Source: Endomicrobiaceae bacterium (lineage in GTDB: Bacteria > Elusimicrobiota > Endomicrobiia > Endomicrobiales > Endomicrobiaceae). From it: DNA of 49,021 nt. Of the stretch, positions 11,128-45,311 are shown piece after piece; the first letter of the stretch is position 1, and each line of letters opens with the position of its first letter. Position numbers and translations under genes: made by a program. Below the pieces are notes generated by a model, which worked only from the letters and a program-made list of their open reading frames with translations, had not been told where the DNA came from and ran no database searches. Location of the stretch: contig JAQVBD010000008.1 in NCBI GenBank assembly GCA_028690485.1, positions 1-49,021 of the forward strand, given 5' to 3'.

Positions 11128-11463
11128 TTATTTGGATACTATAGCAACTGCAACTACTGTATTTTTTGTATGTGAAAAAGAAATATCAATATAAGATATC
11201 CTTTTGTTTTTTATATAGACCTCTGGTTTTCCATTGTCTATATTTTTAAAAGAAATATCGGTTATTGAAATATTTTTTTTGCTGTTGATTGCTTTCCAGA
11301 CAGCTTCTTTGCCGGCAAATCTGACTGCAAAATGTTGTGATAAATTTTTTTTTGATAAGCAATAATCTATTTCATTTTGAGAAAAGATTCTTTTAAGGAA
11401 TGTATCATCTTTAACAAGTTTAGAAAATCTTTTTACTTCTTCAATATCTATGCCAATTTTCAT
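11128..11463 (-). CDS. acpS: Holo-[acyl-carrier-protein] synthase
   Basis: It transfers 4'-phosphopantetheine from CoA to the serine of apo-ACP. The 111-residue protein has the standard AcpS length and the two conserved Mg2+/CoA-binding motifs: GIDIEEVKRF at residues 4-13 and FAGKEAVWKAI near 49-59. The C-terminal SFSHTKNTVVAVAIV also matches the family. It is preceded by only a modest AGG SD. It lies 81 bases after a 34-codon peptide gene with its own promoter, which may drive the whole acpS-nnrD-M20-lrgAB string. Confidence 0.95.
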   Translation of the reverse strand: MKIGIDIEEVKRFSKLVKDDTFLKRIFSQNEIDYCLSKKNLSQHFAVRFAGKEAVWKAINSKKNISITDISFKNIDNGKPEVYIKNKRISYIDISFSHTKNTVVAVAIVSK

Positions 11464-11544
11464 ATTTACCTACAGAAAAAACAATATACCCACTTTCGCA
11501 GGTACATGTTTTATAACTATTTAAAAACCAACAAGCAATATGCA

Positions 11545-11649
11545 TTAATAATACATGTCGCTTGCAGATATTATAGAATCCAATTCAACTTTTATTTTAG
11601 TAAGCTTAGGCTTTGACCAAACCTTCTTCTTTGCTTTTTTTATTGTCAT
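11545..11649 (-). CDS. 34-residue peptide of unknown function, RiPP-precursor-like N-terminal motif
   Basis: A short gene with ATG at 11649 and TAA at 11545. The product starts MTIKKAKKK, has a central WSKPKLTKIKVEL (residues 11-23) and ends SASDMYY. It carries good expression signals: an SD (GAGG) 8 bases before the ATG and a promoter TTGATT-N17-TATAAT at 11682-11710. The basic start followed by an aromatic-x-K-P-K-L-x-x-(I/V) motif resembles leader regions of small ribosomal peptides such as lasso-type precursors. No maturation enzyme, transporter or cysteine core is nearby, so this is resemblance only. It could also be a leader peptide affecting acpS. It lies 89 bases after pheT. Confidence 0.6.
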   Translation of the reverse strand: MTIKKAKKKVWSKPKLTKIKVELDSIISASDMYY

Positions 11650-11681
11650 AAAAAAACCTCTTTAAAACATCTCTCATATTA

Positions 11682-11710
11682 ATTATATATTATGAATATC
11701 AAAAAATCAA
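11682..11710 (-). promoter_or_regulatory. Promoter of the 34-aa peptide and probably acpS operon
   Basis: TTGATT (11705-11710) and a perfect TATAAT (11682-11687) are separated by exactly 17 bases on the minus strand. The predicted start near 11675 leaves about 25 bases to the ATG at 11649. Its position just after the pheT stop (11739) indicates a new transcription unit. Confidence 0.7.
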
Positions 11711-34696: not shown

Positions 34697-36013
34697 CTAA
34701 ATTGTACATTGTTTTCCAACTAAATCATAATCTTTAAAACCAGTTACTGTAATCTTCTTAAAGTCTCCGACTTTTAAATTATTTACATTGATAATAATAT
34801 TATTATCAATTTCCGGCGCTTGAAAATATGCTCTGCAATAAGCTTTTTTATTATCAATTGATTCAATTAAAACTTCAAAATTCTGTCCGATTTTCTTGGA
34901 ATTATTTTTAATTACATTATTAAATTGTATATTTGCAAGAATTTGTTTTCTTTGTTCAATAATATCTTTATCTATTTTATTATTAAATTTGAAAGAACCT
35001 GCAGCTTTTTGATCTGAATATCCAAAAATACCGATATGTTCAAACCAATTTTCTTTTACAAATTCTTCTAATTCTGCAAAATCTTTTTTCGTTTCATTTG
35101 GGAAACCTGTTATCAACGATGTTCTTAAAAATATATTTGGAAATTTCTTTTTAATGTTTTCTATAATTTTACGAGTATTTACAGGACGATTCATATCAGT
35201 AAGAATATTCTTACTGATATGTTGTACAGGAATATCTATATAATTACAAATGTTGTCATGCTCATAAATTGTTTCTAATAAAGACGAAGTTACTGTTGAC
35301 GGATAAGAATATAACAACCTAATCCATTTTAAATTATTTATTTTAGATATTTCCTGCAATAACTTATCTAATCTGGGTTTACCATAAATATCTGTACCAT
35401 ATGTTGTTGTATCCTGCGCTATGATATTTATTTCTTTAATACCAAAATCAACAAGAGCTTTTGCTTCATCAACTACTGACTTTATCGTTCTGCTTTTATA
35501 TTTTCCCCTTAACTTGGGAATAATACAAAAGCTACATTTATGATTGCATCCTTCTGCTATTTTAATATATGTAGTTGGTAAATTATCTGACAAAATTCTT
35601 CTTCTTGAATCGTTCATACCGCCGGCACATTGCGTATCAGCAAAAAATTTGTTTTTTTTAATTAGATGAACAATATTTCCAAACGAACCGGTACCTACAT
35701 ATCCATCTATTAACGGATATTTTTTTAACATACTTTCTTTCAATAATTGGGGTAAACAACCGGATACAAAAACTTTTAAATTTTGGTTTTTTTGTTTTAT
35801 TAAACATGCTCGTTCTATTTGGCTCTGTGATTCTAATTGAGCATCTAAAATAAAAGAACATGTATGAATTAAAATTATATCTGCACAATTAATATCATTC
35901 GTTAATAAGAAACCGTCTTTAACAAATAAACCTGCAACAGATTCAGATTCAACTGTATTTTTAGAACAACCTAAAGTTATTATTGCTACTTTCTGATTTT
36001 TCAAAATATTCAA
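34697..36013 (-). CDS. rimO: Ribosomal protein uS12 methylthiotransferase RimO
   Basis: A radical SAM enzyme that methylthiolates an aspartate of ribosomal protein S12. The 438-residue protein has three domains: the UPF0004 domain with cluster cysteines Cys16, Cys52 and Cys86; the radical SAM domain with Cys156, Cys160 and Cys163 (EGCNHKCSFCIIPKLRG); and a C-terminal TRAM domain (about 372-438). The N-terminal TLGCSKNTVESE is the RimO rather than MiaB version. It overlaps rodZ by 4 bases. Confidence 0.94.
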   Translation of the reverse strand: MNILKNQKVAIITLGCSKNTVESESVAGLFVKDGFLLTNDINCADIILIHTCSFILDAQLESQSQIERACLIKQKNQNLKVFVSGCLPQLLKESMLKKYPLIDGYVGTGSFGNIVHLIKKNKFFADTQCAGGMNDSRRRILSDNLPTTYIKIAEGCNHKCSFCIIPKLRGKYKSRTIKSVVDEAKALVDFGIKEINIIAQDTTTYGTDIYGKPRLDKLLQEISKINNLKWIRLLYSYPSTVTSSLLETIYEHDNICNYIDIPVQHISKNILTDMNRPVNTRKIIENIKKKFPNIFLRTSLITGFPNETKKDFAELEEFVKENWFEHIGIFGYSDQKAAGSFKFNNKIDKDIIEQRKQILANIQFNNVIKNNSKKIGQNFEVLIESIDNKKAYCRAYFQAPEIDNNIIINVNNLKVGDFKKITVTGFKDYDLVGKQCTI

Positions 36014-42920: not shown

Positions 42921-45311
42921 TTATATAAACAGATTTGAGTTTGCATTGTTTGACTCTGCAATATACTTTGCAACTCCGCCAATTTCAACTCCATCTATCA
43001 ATTCTTCCTGTTTTACCCCCATAACATCCATAGACATATTACATGCAATGAATTTAACACCGTTTTTTTGGGCATCATCAATTAATTGCTGCAATGTTGA
43101 AACATTTTTACTTTTCATAACCATTTTCATCATTAAAGTACCAAAACCCAACATATTCATTTTTGACAATTTCAATTTATTAATACCTTTAGGCATCATC
43201 ATTGAAAACATCTTTTCAATGATATTTTTCTTTACTTTTTTATTTAAGATTGATTTTCTTAAAACATTAAGTCCCCAAAAAGTAAAAAACATTGTTACTT
43301 TTTTCCCGCTTGCAACTGCTCCGTTTGCAATAATCATTGATGCTATTACTTTATCTAAATCATTTGAAAAGACAACAATAGTCTGACCGGAACTATTATT
43401 TACAATATTATTTGAAAATGAAGGAGAATTTCCTTTTCCTTTACATATAATTGCTTTGATTATTTTATTTTCTGTTGTTAAATTCAACAATGTATTTCCT
43501 GTAATCTGACACCAGCCCTCTATATCAGATTTAAAACCCGCATCTGTTGTAGACAATTCCACTGATTGTCCTTCTTGTATATTTTTTATAGTTTCAGATA
43601 ACTTCATAATTGGTCCCGGACATTGCATACCACAGGCATCAAGTTTGATAACAGTACATGTTATTGGAATATTTGTTTTTTTATTGTTCATATTTAAAAC
43701 ACCTTGTTTATCCTTAATTATTTCTTCATATAACATTATTCCGCCGCTTAAACTGTAAATATTATTAAAACCGCTTTGTGTTAAAATTCTTGAAGCTATA
43801 TAACTTGTAAAACCTTTTGCACAATAAAGTACAACTTTTTTATCTTTTGGTATCTCTGAAAGCCTTTCTCTTAATTCTTGTGCAGGAATATTTACGGCAT
43901 TCGGAATAGATTTTAAATCAAATGATATTTTAGGTCTTACATCTATAATATAAGAATCTTTTAAATCTTCATAAAAAACCGGCTTTACCAAATTATTCAA
44001 AATATTTTCAGCTGCCATAGCAACTATATTAACAGGGTCTTTAGCTGATGAATACGGCGGAGCATAACATAATTCACTGTTCAGCAAATCACTAATTTTT
44101 CCATTTAATCTTATAACTGAAGAAATAACATCTATTCGTTTTTCAACACCTTCTAACCCTGCTGCCTGAGCTCCGAATATTTTCCCTTTTTCATCAAACA
44201 ATATCTTAATTAATAATGGGAAAGAATTTGGGTAATATCCGGCATGCGAATTACCCCATATATGAACTTTTTTATAACTTATATTCTTTTTCTGCAATTG
44301 TTTTTCATTATTCCCCACACTTGCAACTGTTAAATCAAAAACTTTTACAACAGCAGTCCCTTGAGTTTTTTTATAACCGGACTTAGTACCCGCTATATTA
44401 TCCGCAATAATTCTGCCTTGTCTGTTTGCCGGTCCGGCTAAAGGAATAAGGGTCTGGCTATCAGTTATAAAATCTGTAACTTCTATACTGTCACCGGCAG
44501 CATATATATCAGGATTTGATGTCTGCATAAATTCATTTACTTTTATACTGTCATGAAGTCCTAACTGCAAACCGCAATCTTTTGCTATTTTAGTTTCAGG
44601 TTTCACTCCTATTGATAAAACAGCAATATCATAAGGAATTTTTTTATCCGAATTTAAAACAATATTTTCTTGTTCAAATCTTTTAACACCATCTTGTAAA
44701 TATAAATTTACTCCGTTTTCTCTCATTTGATTCTGTGCAAAAGCAACAACATCTAAATCAATTGGAGCAAGTATTTGGTTTGAGAGTTCTACTAAAGAGG
44801 TATTAAGATTAATATGTGCAAAGTTTTCTGCCATTTCCACGCCAATAAAACCGCCGCCGATAACAACTGCATTTTTTACATTATTTTTCTTTATAAATTC
44901 TTTTATTTTATCTGCATCTTCCAATGTTCTTACCGTAAATATCTTATTATTATTTATACCTTCAATGTTAGGAATAACAGGACTTGCACCTAATGCTAAA
45001 ACTAACTTATCATAAGACAAACGTTCACCGGTTATAGTTTTAACTTTTTTGTTTTCACTATCAATTTCTATAATTTCACAATTAAGTTTAACATCAATAT
45101 TAAATAAATTTTTAAAAGTTTCAGGATTTGACACTAAAATATTATTTCTGTCACTTATTACATCGGAACAATAATATGGAAGTCCGCAATTTGCTATTGA
45201 TACTTCACTTGTTTTTTCAAGTATAGTAATTTCAGCATGTTCCAAAACTCTTCTTAATCTGGCAGCACAACTTGCACCTGCTGCTCCGCCGCCAACAATT
45301 AAAACTTTCAT
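42921..45311 (-). CDS. CoA-disulfide reductase/rhodanese/TusA/DsrE four-domain fusion
   Basis: A 796-residue cytoplasmic flavoprotein. Domains: FAD/NAD(P)-binding disulfide reductase (1-440) with GGGAAGASCAARLRR, active Cys42 (SIANCGLPYY), GGGFIGVEMAENFA and AAGDSIEV; rhodanese (445-535) with Cys497 in VVLYCAKGFTSYIA; TusA/SirA domain (552-625) with Cys560 and Cys564 (LDACGMQCPGP); DsrE-like domain (640-796) with a cysteine at 757. Persulfide would pass between the domain cysteines; the fused set fits CoA- or sulfur-trafficking redox chemistry. This fusion type is known in anaerobes. It starts 3 bases after the C_GCAxxG_C_C gene. Confidence 0.9.
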   Translation of the reverse strand: MKVLIVGGGAAGASCAARLRRVLEHAEITILEKTSEVSIANCGLPYYCSDVISDRNNILVSNPETFKNLFNIDVKLNCEIIEIDSENKKVKTITGERLSYDKLVLALGASPVIPNIEGINNNKIFTVRTLEDADKIKEFIKKNNVKNAVVIGGGFIGVEMAENFAHINLNTSLVELSNQILAPIDLDVVAFAQNQMRENGVNLYLQDGVKRFEQENIVLNSDKKIPYDIAVLSIGVKPETKIAKDCGLQLGLHDSIKVNEFMQTSNPDIYAAGDSIEVTDFITDSQTLIPLAGPANRQGRIIADNIAGTKSGYKKTQGTAVVKVFDLTVASVGNNEKQLQKKNISYKKVHIWGNSHAGYYPNSFPLLIKILFDEKGKIFGAQAAGLEGVEKRIDVISSVIRLNGKISDLLNSELCYAPPYSSAKDPVNIVAMAAENILNNLVKPVFYEDLKDSYIIDVRPKISFDLKSIPNAVNIPAQELRERLSEIPKDKKVVLYCAKGFTSYIASRILTQSGFNNIYSLSGGIMLYEEIIKDKQGVLNMNNKKTNIPITCTVIKLDACGMQCPGPIMKLSETIKNIQEGQSVELSTTDAGFKSDIEGWCQITGNTLLNLTTENKIIKAIICKGKGNSPSFSNNIVNNSSGQTIVVFSNDLDKVIASMIIANGAVASGKKVTMFFTFWGLNVLRKSILNKKVKKNIIEKMFSMMMPKGINKLKLSKMNMLGFGTLMMKMVMKSKNVSTLQQLIDDAQKNGVKFIACNMSMDVMGVKQEELIDGVEIGGVAKYIAESNNANSNLFI

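Follow-up and report, generated by a model that had tools for sequence, protein, structure and literature searches.

The window, i.e., the whole 49,021-nucleotide stretch of DNA that was analysed, contains a real, conserved coding gene of 34 codons with a near-consensus promoter, a Shine-Dalgarno sequence, and a terminator (Table 1). The gene probably encodes the precursor of a RiPP (a ribosomally made, post-translationally modified peptide) with dispersed parts: the peptide, a discrete PqqD-type RRE, and a TPR-radical SAM-SPASM maturase. This reading is directly supported by coding constraint, a transcription unit separate from the neighbors, co-occurrence, an operon-like adjacency in one genome, an RRE fold match, and a leader motif. 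Radical SAM RiPPs as such are known; we are aware of no description of this arrangement, of a TPR-bearing maturase, or of such a system in this lineage. RiPP finders expect the precursor, the RRE, and the enzyme to be adjacent, and here they occupy three unlinked places. Such systems are missed because their parts are unlinked and the precursor is below the ordinary gene-calling length, a point the sequence-only reading had rightly made about this frame of 34 codons.

A conserved short gene between pheT and acpS

The source genome (G000 in the comparison) is an Endomicrobiaceae MAG (Elusimicrobiota) of 1.63 Mb in 122 contigs; the closest relative with a name is Candidatus Praeruminimicrobium purgamenti, of the same family and phylum. 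Praeruminimicrobium and Proruminimicrobium are from anaerobic digesters and branch earlier than the rumen lineages (PMC11257099). The gene product is MTIKKAKKKVWSKPKLTKIKVELDSIISASDMYY, and the gene has pheT and acpS-nnr as its neighbors, all of them read from the minus strand (gene names are based on similarity and on the sequence-only reading). The TTGATT-N17-TATAAT promoter, the Shine-Dalgarno sequence, and the clean stop claimed earlier are borne out by the sequence; the promoter has a consensus score of 10/12 and is among the two top sigma-70-like sites of the region. As the peptide gene is followed by a terminator of its own, it looks like a separate transcription unit between pheT and acpS.

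Table 1. Features of the putative precursor-peptide gene and its surroundings in the window.
Feature	Position	Strand	Basis
Putative precursor-peptide gene, ATG to TAA, 34 aa	11545..11649	-	ORF, seven homologues, purifying selection, third-position bias
Promoter TTGATT-N17-TATAAT	11682..11710	-	TTGATTTTT..TATAATATATAAT-like sequence kept upstream in G001, G007, G017
Shine-Dalgarno AGAGG, ATG 7 nt downstream	11657..11661	-	Sequence; homologues with similar upstream GAGG/GGAG
W-S-K-P-K-L, codons 11-16, aromatic-xxPxL leader motif	11602..11619	-	W, K, P, K, L/I invariant in 7/7
D-S-I-I-S-A-S-D-M-Y-Y, codons 24-34, conserved C-terminal region	11548..11580	-	Alignment
Intrinsic terminator separating the peptide gene from acpS	11484..11507	-	Sequence; hairpins at the same place in relatives
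acpS (holo-ACP synthase), next gene downstream of the peptide	11128..11463	-	Name from the sequence-only reading and position

Profile searches of 84 genomes from the order detected the peptide in seven (E 1e-18 to 1e-21). The same seven holders alone gave good matches among 295 sampled genomes of the phylum, the other 288 having no comparable match. Each holder carries one copy, and the holders belong to three genera: G000 and G001 to the first, G007 and G017 to the second, and G024, G028, and G034, which are three of the 11 members, to the third. There are six distinct peptide sequences, with K-x-W-x-K-P-K-[LI]-x-K-I-K and a C-terminal D-x-x-I-x-A-x-D-M-x-Y common to all. The genes of G007 and G017 differ at eight of 99 nucleotides, all eight at the third codon position and all synonymous, and the differences between G000 and G007 are distributed over the three codon positions as 2/0/11. 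The comparison shows that the peptide sequence is under purifying selection as far as the C-terminus. Conservation and coding constraint, the lack of which had been named earlier as counting against the gene, were both found. The third-position bias, the synonymous differences, and the seven homologues therefore place the ORF beyond chance. Short length is the only point in favor of a chance ORF, a reading that these findings and the conserved signals already contradict and that we regard as hardly credible.

No match of the peptide to Pfam or NCBIfam models was found at E<=10, and its profile gave a single, meaningless match (RNase P) among PDB sequences. Paralogue searches with the pattern WxKP[KE] in 12 genomes and with a DMxY-stop pattern in eight genomes returned the peptide itself only. 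One paralogue candidate, in G028:C148, was rejected as an out-of-frame artefact within another reading frame.

The gene acpS is located directly downstream of the peptide in G000, G001, G007, G017, and G028, while the other flank of these copies varies (pheT, a ClpB-like AAA protein, or a DUF4912/GH57 pair). In the acpS-linked copies a promoter-like element recurs upstream, and a stable hairpin is present 3' of the peptide in five out of five; the hairpin sequences are unlike each other, with -14.5 to -20.3 kcal/mol at the terminator position in G001, G007, G017, and G028. The position immediately upstream of acpS in five of the seven genomes, with a hairpin between, would suit a leader peptide or attenuator controlling acpS, as the sequence-only reading had suggested. 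However, in G034 the peptide sits upstream of the accA-aldolase region, and in G024 it lies between valS and a 536-aa TPR-radical SAM-SPASM gene on the same strand. In both genomes acpS is on another contig than the peptide, which excludes a fixed acpS-leader role. Furthermore, the hairpin is a plain terminator of divergent sequence that stands between the peptide and acpS, the selection on the amino acid sequence extends to the C-terminus, a search for structured RNA gave no Rfam match, and none of the non-holder relatives examined has a comparable peptide upstream of acpS. The two relocated copies are enough to contradict the leader reading, which we consider very improbable. Although peptide-linked in five of the seven genomes, acpS is not part of the peptide's system.

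The leader motif, the RRE, and the candidate maturase

All seven peptides contain W-[STI]-K-P-K-[LI], which by sequence fits the published leader motif [Y/W]xxPx[L/V/I/F/A] bound by discrete lasso RREs (PMC13381572). PqqD, StsC, and others have been grouped with leader motifs of the W/Y/LxxP type (PMC12710340). The earlier proposal that W-x-K-P-K-L resembles the leaders of modified peptides is in line with these motifs. In the C-terminal region, the alignment of the seven peptides shows Asp24, Ile27, Ala29, Asp31, Met32, and Tyr34 to be invariant, and the peptides end in MYY, MTY, or MSY. Codons 24-34 are presumed to be the modified core. None of the seven homologues contains a cysteine, so that thioether classes are excluded by sequence.

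A discrete PF05402 PqqD-type RRE of 86 residues was found in six of the seven holders with 42.8-50.8 bits (cut-off 23.4). In the genome of the window its gene is located on contig C66 (2996-3256, minus strand). The PF05402 search of the remaining holder, G034 (86% complete), found no RRE. Two genes for SurA-type rotamases and pdxA invariably follow the RRE gene, which never adjoins the peptide. The 86-residue RRE was also missing from G010 and G019, the two complete non-holders examined, which are of the same genus as three of the holders and have just a weaker, different PqqD-like frame of 145-152 aa in another genomic setting. The eight best PDB matches of the RRE AF2 model were all RREs (Foldseek probability 0.96-1.0), although with modest E-values of 0.013-0.15. 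The top match was the lasso protein TbiB1 with the bound TbiA leader, and the others included lasso B1 6jx3 and the PqqD structures 5sxy and 3g2b.

Two further observations were made around these genes. A ThiF-family gene adjoins the RRE gene in both genomes of the window genus and in none of the others (L229:3415-4137(-), L230:8234-8974(-)). A second, unlike PqqD-like protein of about 145 aa occurs in G010 (L235:7205-7642(+)), where its gene is beside glycosyltransferase-like genes, in G019:C11, and in G028:C206; its distribution is unrelated to that of the peptide.

The sequence-only reading had stated that no maturase lies within the window, and indeed the sole CxxxCxxC gene there is RimO-like (UPF0004, radical SAM, and TRAM; 34697-36013). 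A candidate was identified in G024, where the start of the 536-aa gene follows the stop of the peptide by 44 nt; this adjacency points to the radical SAM enzyme as a likely partner. The enzyme has TPR, Radical_SAM (9.8e-16), and SPASM (3.7e-6) domains. It exceeded no NCBIfam cut-off, the best model giving 75 bits vs 170, and its AF2 model was too poor outside the TPR part for use.

Relatives of the G024 enzyme at E<=1e-45 were found in eight of the 295 phylum genomes, namely the seven peptide holders and G037, which has the enzyme relative and PqqD-like proteins with no detectable peptide. The best matches in G001, G007, and G017 reached 388-411 bits, with the runner-up at most at 203. A direct orthologue was seen in these three genomes as well as in G024 and G034, and in G028 it is present as a C-terminal fragment ending GQIRNKLCRPVEDK, as read from the sequence. 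In G000, contig C15 ends inside the array gene preceding the orthologue and C107 carries the genes following it. The break between C15 and C107 is an assembly gap, which explains the absence of the exact orthologue from the assembly; G000 is counted among the eight genomes via other array members. Peptide and enzyme are adjacent in G024 only and unlinked in the six other holders, among which the G000 orthologue falls into the assembly gap. The nominal hypergeometric P values for the co-occurrence, 2e-13 across the phylum sample and 0.006 when the third genus is taken alone, overstate the evidence, because the holders are related and on the acpS tree three gains or losses suffice for the peptide distribution. 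The co-occurrence therefore rests on few independent events.

These few independent losses are one point in favor of a small protein that acts without modification, be it secreted, bioactive, toxin-like, or regulatory; its loss alongside the RRE and the radical SAM genes would then reflect no more than the shedding of one gene set during genome reduction in host-associated lineages. In five of the seven genomes the peptide is near acpS and away from the enzyme, and a Lys-rich N-terminus would suit a nucleic-acid- or membrane-binding peptide. On the other hand, the peptide immediately precedes the enzyme in G024, both minimal genomes (G024 and G034) retain just this one array gene plus the peptide, the [Y/W]xxPxL motif is invariant with a matching RRE present, and no hydrophobic stretch resembling a signal peptide was seen. 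We consider an unmodified peptide unlikely. Among the three options of the sequence-only reading, it is the modified peptide with enzymes elsewhere that gains support, from the G024 adjacency, the enzyme co-occurrence, the RRE elsewhere in the genome, and the motif. The acpS leader was not borne out, and a toxin-like or bioactive role as an unmodified peptide found no positive evidence.

As expected for an RRE-dependent radical SAM RiPP, a constrained short precursor with a conserved leader and core, an RRE-type leader motif, and an RRE in the same genome were found. We infer the RRE-peptide binding, the enzyme-substrate pairing, and the modified residues as follows. The Lys-rich N-terminal part with W-x-K-P-K-[LI] would be the leader, bound by the discrete PqqD-type RRE through contacts at W11-P14-L16. 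The RRE would present the C-terminal part LDSIISASDMYY to the TPR-radical SAM-SPASM maturase, which may use radical chemistry to modify the C-terminal half, forming no cysteine thioethers and acting most plausibly on the invariant Asp/Met/Tyr. Likely changes are a carbon-carbon or carbon-oxygen cross-link, epimerisation, or modification of the C-terminal Tyr. The linkage in G024 yields a small tractable set consisting of the peptide, the RRE, and one TPR-radical SAM-SPASM enzyme.

Comparison with known peptide systems

Mycofactocin is made from a short precursor whose last residue is an invariant Tyr, with an RRE and a radical SAM-SPASM enzyme (MftA/MftB/MftC); the present system likewise has such a precursor, an RRE, and a candidate radical SAM-SPASM enzyme. 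It differs in that the peptide has neither a C-terminal Val-Tyr nor a match to the MftA model, the genes are unclustered, and the candidate enzyme either scores far under the MftC cut-off or gives no score. In view of the C-termini MYY, MTY, and MSY and the lack of an NCBIfam match, a mycofactocin precursor was rejected. A sactipeptide or ranthipeptide was rejected likewise, as no Cys donors are present in any of the seven peptides.

With the PQQ system (PqqA, PqqD, PqqE; PMC10906245) the present system shares a precursor of very small size, the conserved part of which has W-x-K-P close to its beginning, a discrete PF05402 RRE, and, as a candidate, a radical SAM-SPASM enzyme, the precursor, RRE, and enzyme being separate proteins. 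Unlike PqqA, the peptide has no E-V-T-x-Y with the modified Glu-Tyr pair and no Glu-x3-Tyr in its C-terminal half, and it matches no Pfam or NCBIfam precursor model, the likeness to PqqA being local and confined to the leader. The candidate enzyme is TPR-bearing and not called PqqE, and the genes are dispersed. A PqqA/PQQ precursor was thus rejected, there being no E-x-x-x-Y pair, no PqqA model match, and no PqqE equivalog. Lasso systems with a discrete B1 RRE (TbiB1, paeninodin PbaB1; PMC13381572) resemble the present one in the [Y/W]xxPx[L/I] leader motif and in the best structural match of the RRE model, TbiB1 with bound leader, but use an ATP-dependent cyclase where the candidate here is a radical SAM enzyme. 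The B2-type leader peptidase/transglutaminase PF13471 was found in none of ten genomes, including all holders, while the positive controls matched, and a lasso precursor was therefore rejected.

Tandem radical SAM arrays

In the genomes with an array, the enzyme orthologue is an array member, and it is the sole array gene retained in G024 and G034. In G007, 28 consecutive same-strand ORFs contain CxxxCxxC (G007:C23:231736-273410; L090, L091, L102), and radical SAM arrays of up to 28 genes are also present in G001:C2 (L088, L089), G017:C38 (L092, L093, L103), and G037:C4 (L110, L111). Many of the array genes have TPRs or SPASM and one has a B12-binding domain; eight out of eight tested proteins of the G001 array matched Radical_SAM. 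The 5' end of the array encodes a giant right-handed beta-helix (NosD-like) protein (L089:7767-11660(-), L103:1-2757(+), L111:13152-18860(-)), in the C-terminal part of which GSSDID may represent a nucleotidyltransferase-like motif. Small ORFs in the array gaps included no precursor-like candidate.

We know of no substrate for such arrays in Elusimicrobiota. Work by Meheust et al. in the ISME J in 2020 reportedly described loci of groundwater Elusimicrobia that combine a nitrogenase paralogue with a large set of radical SAM genes, for which no precursor peptide report is known to us. These loci are alike in phylum and in their long radical SAM runs. Unlike them, the seven holders, as well as G037, have no nitrogenase-like PF00148, for which the search was positive in G011 and the controls; by that feature the array therefore differs from the nitrogenase-paralogue locus. 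A literature search for Endomicrobia with radical SAM found nothing relevant, and the genus paper mentions neither radical SAM nor RiPPs (PMC11257099).

With considerable doubt, one may picture a dispersed pathway of Elusimicrobiota, guided by the RRE and leading to a radical RiPP or to a cofactor derived from the peptide. In it, a single scaffold of 34 residues with a promoter of its own, encoded at a housekeeping locus, would supply a line of as many as 28 radical SAM enzymes encoded in tandem, several of them TPR-bearing; if true, the product would be of a hitherto unknown chemical class. That the whole array builds a complex product or cofactor on the peptide as its scaffold, in a PqqA- or mycofactocin-like manner, seems quite improbable. 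The presence of the array in five of the seven holders, the membership of the maturase orthologue in it, the invariant C-terminal Tyr, and the PqqA-like leader half (W.KP....[KR].GL[DE], shuffle P 0.0002-0.004) would fit such a role. Against it, G024 and G034 have the peptide and the enzyme without the rest of the array, the array of G037 occurs without a detectable peptide, and the array is headed by its own giant beta-helix/nucleotidyltransferase-like protein. The peptide system could also offer a way into the tandem radical SAM arrays of Elusimicrobiota, which are so far unexplained.

Besides the arrays, a further radical SAM gene is located beside PhoU/PstB-like genes in several holders (L096:4977-7135(-) in G000:C69; compare L114, L115). 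In the window itself, 42921-45311(-) encodes a fusion of NAD(P)-disulphide reductase, rhodanese, TusA, and DsrE-like domains, a multi-domain protein of the CoA-disulphide-reductase type.
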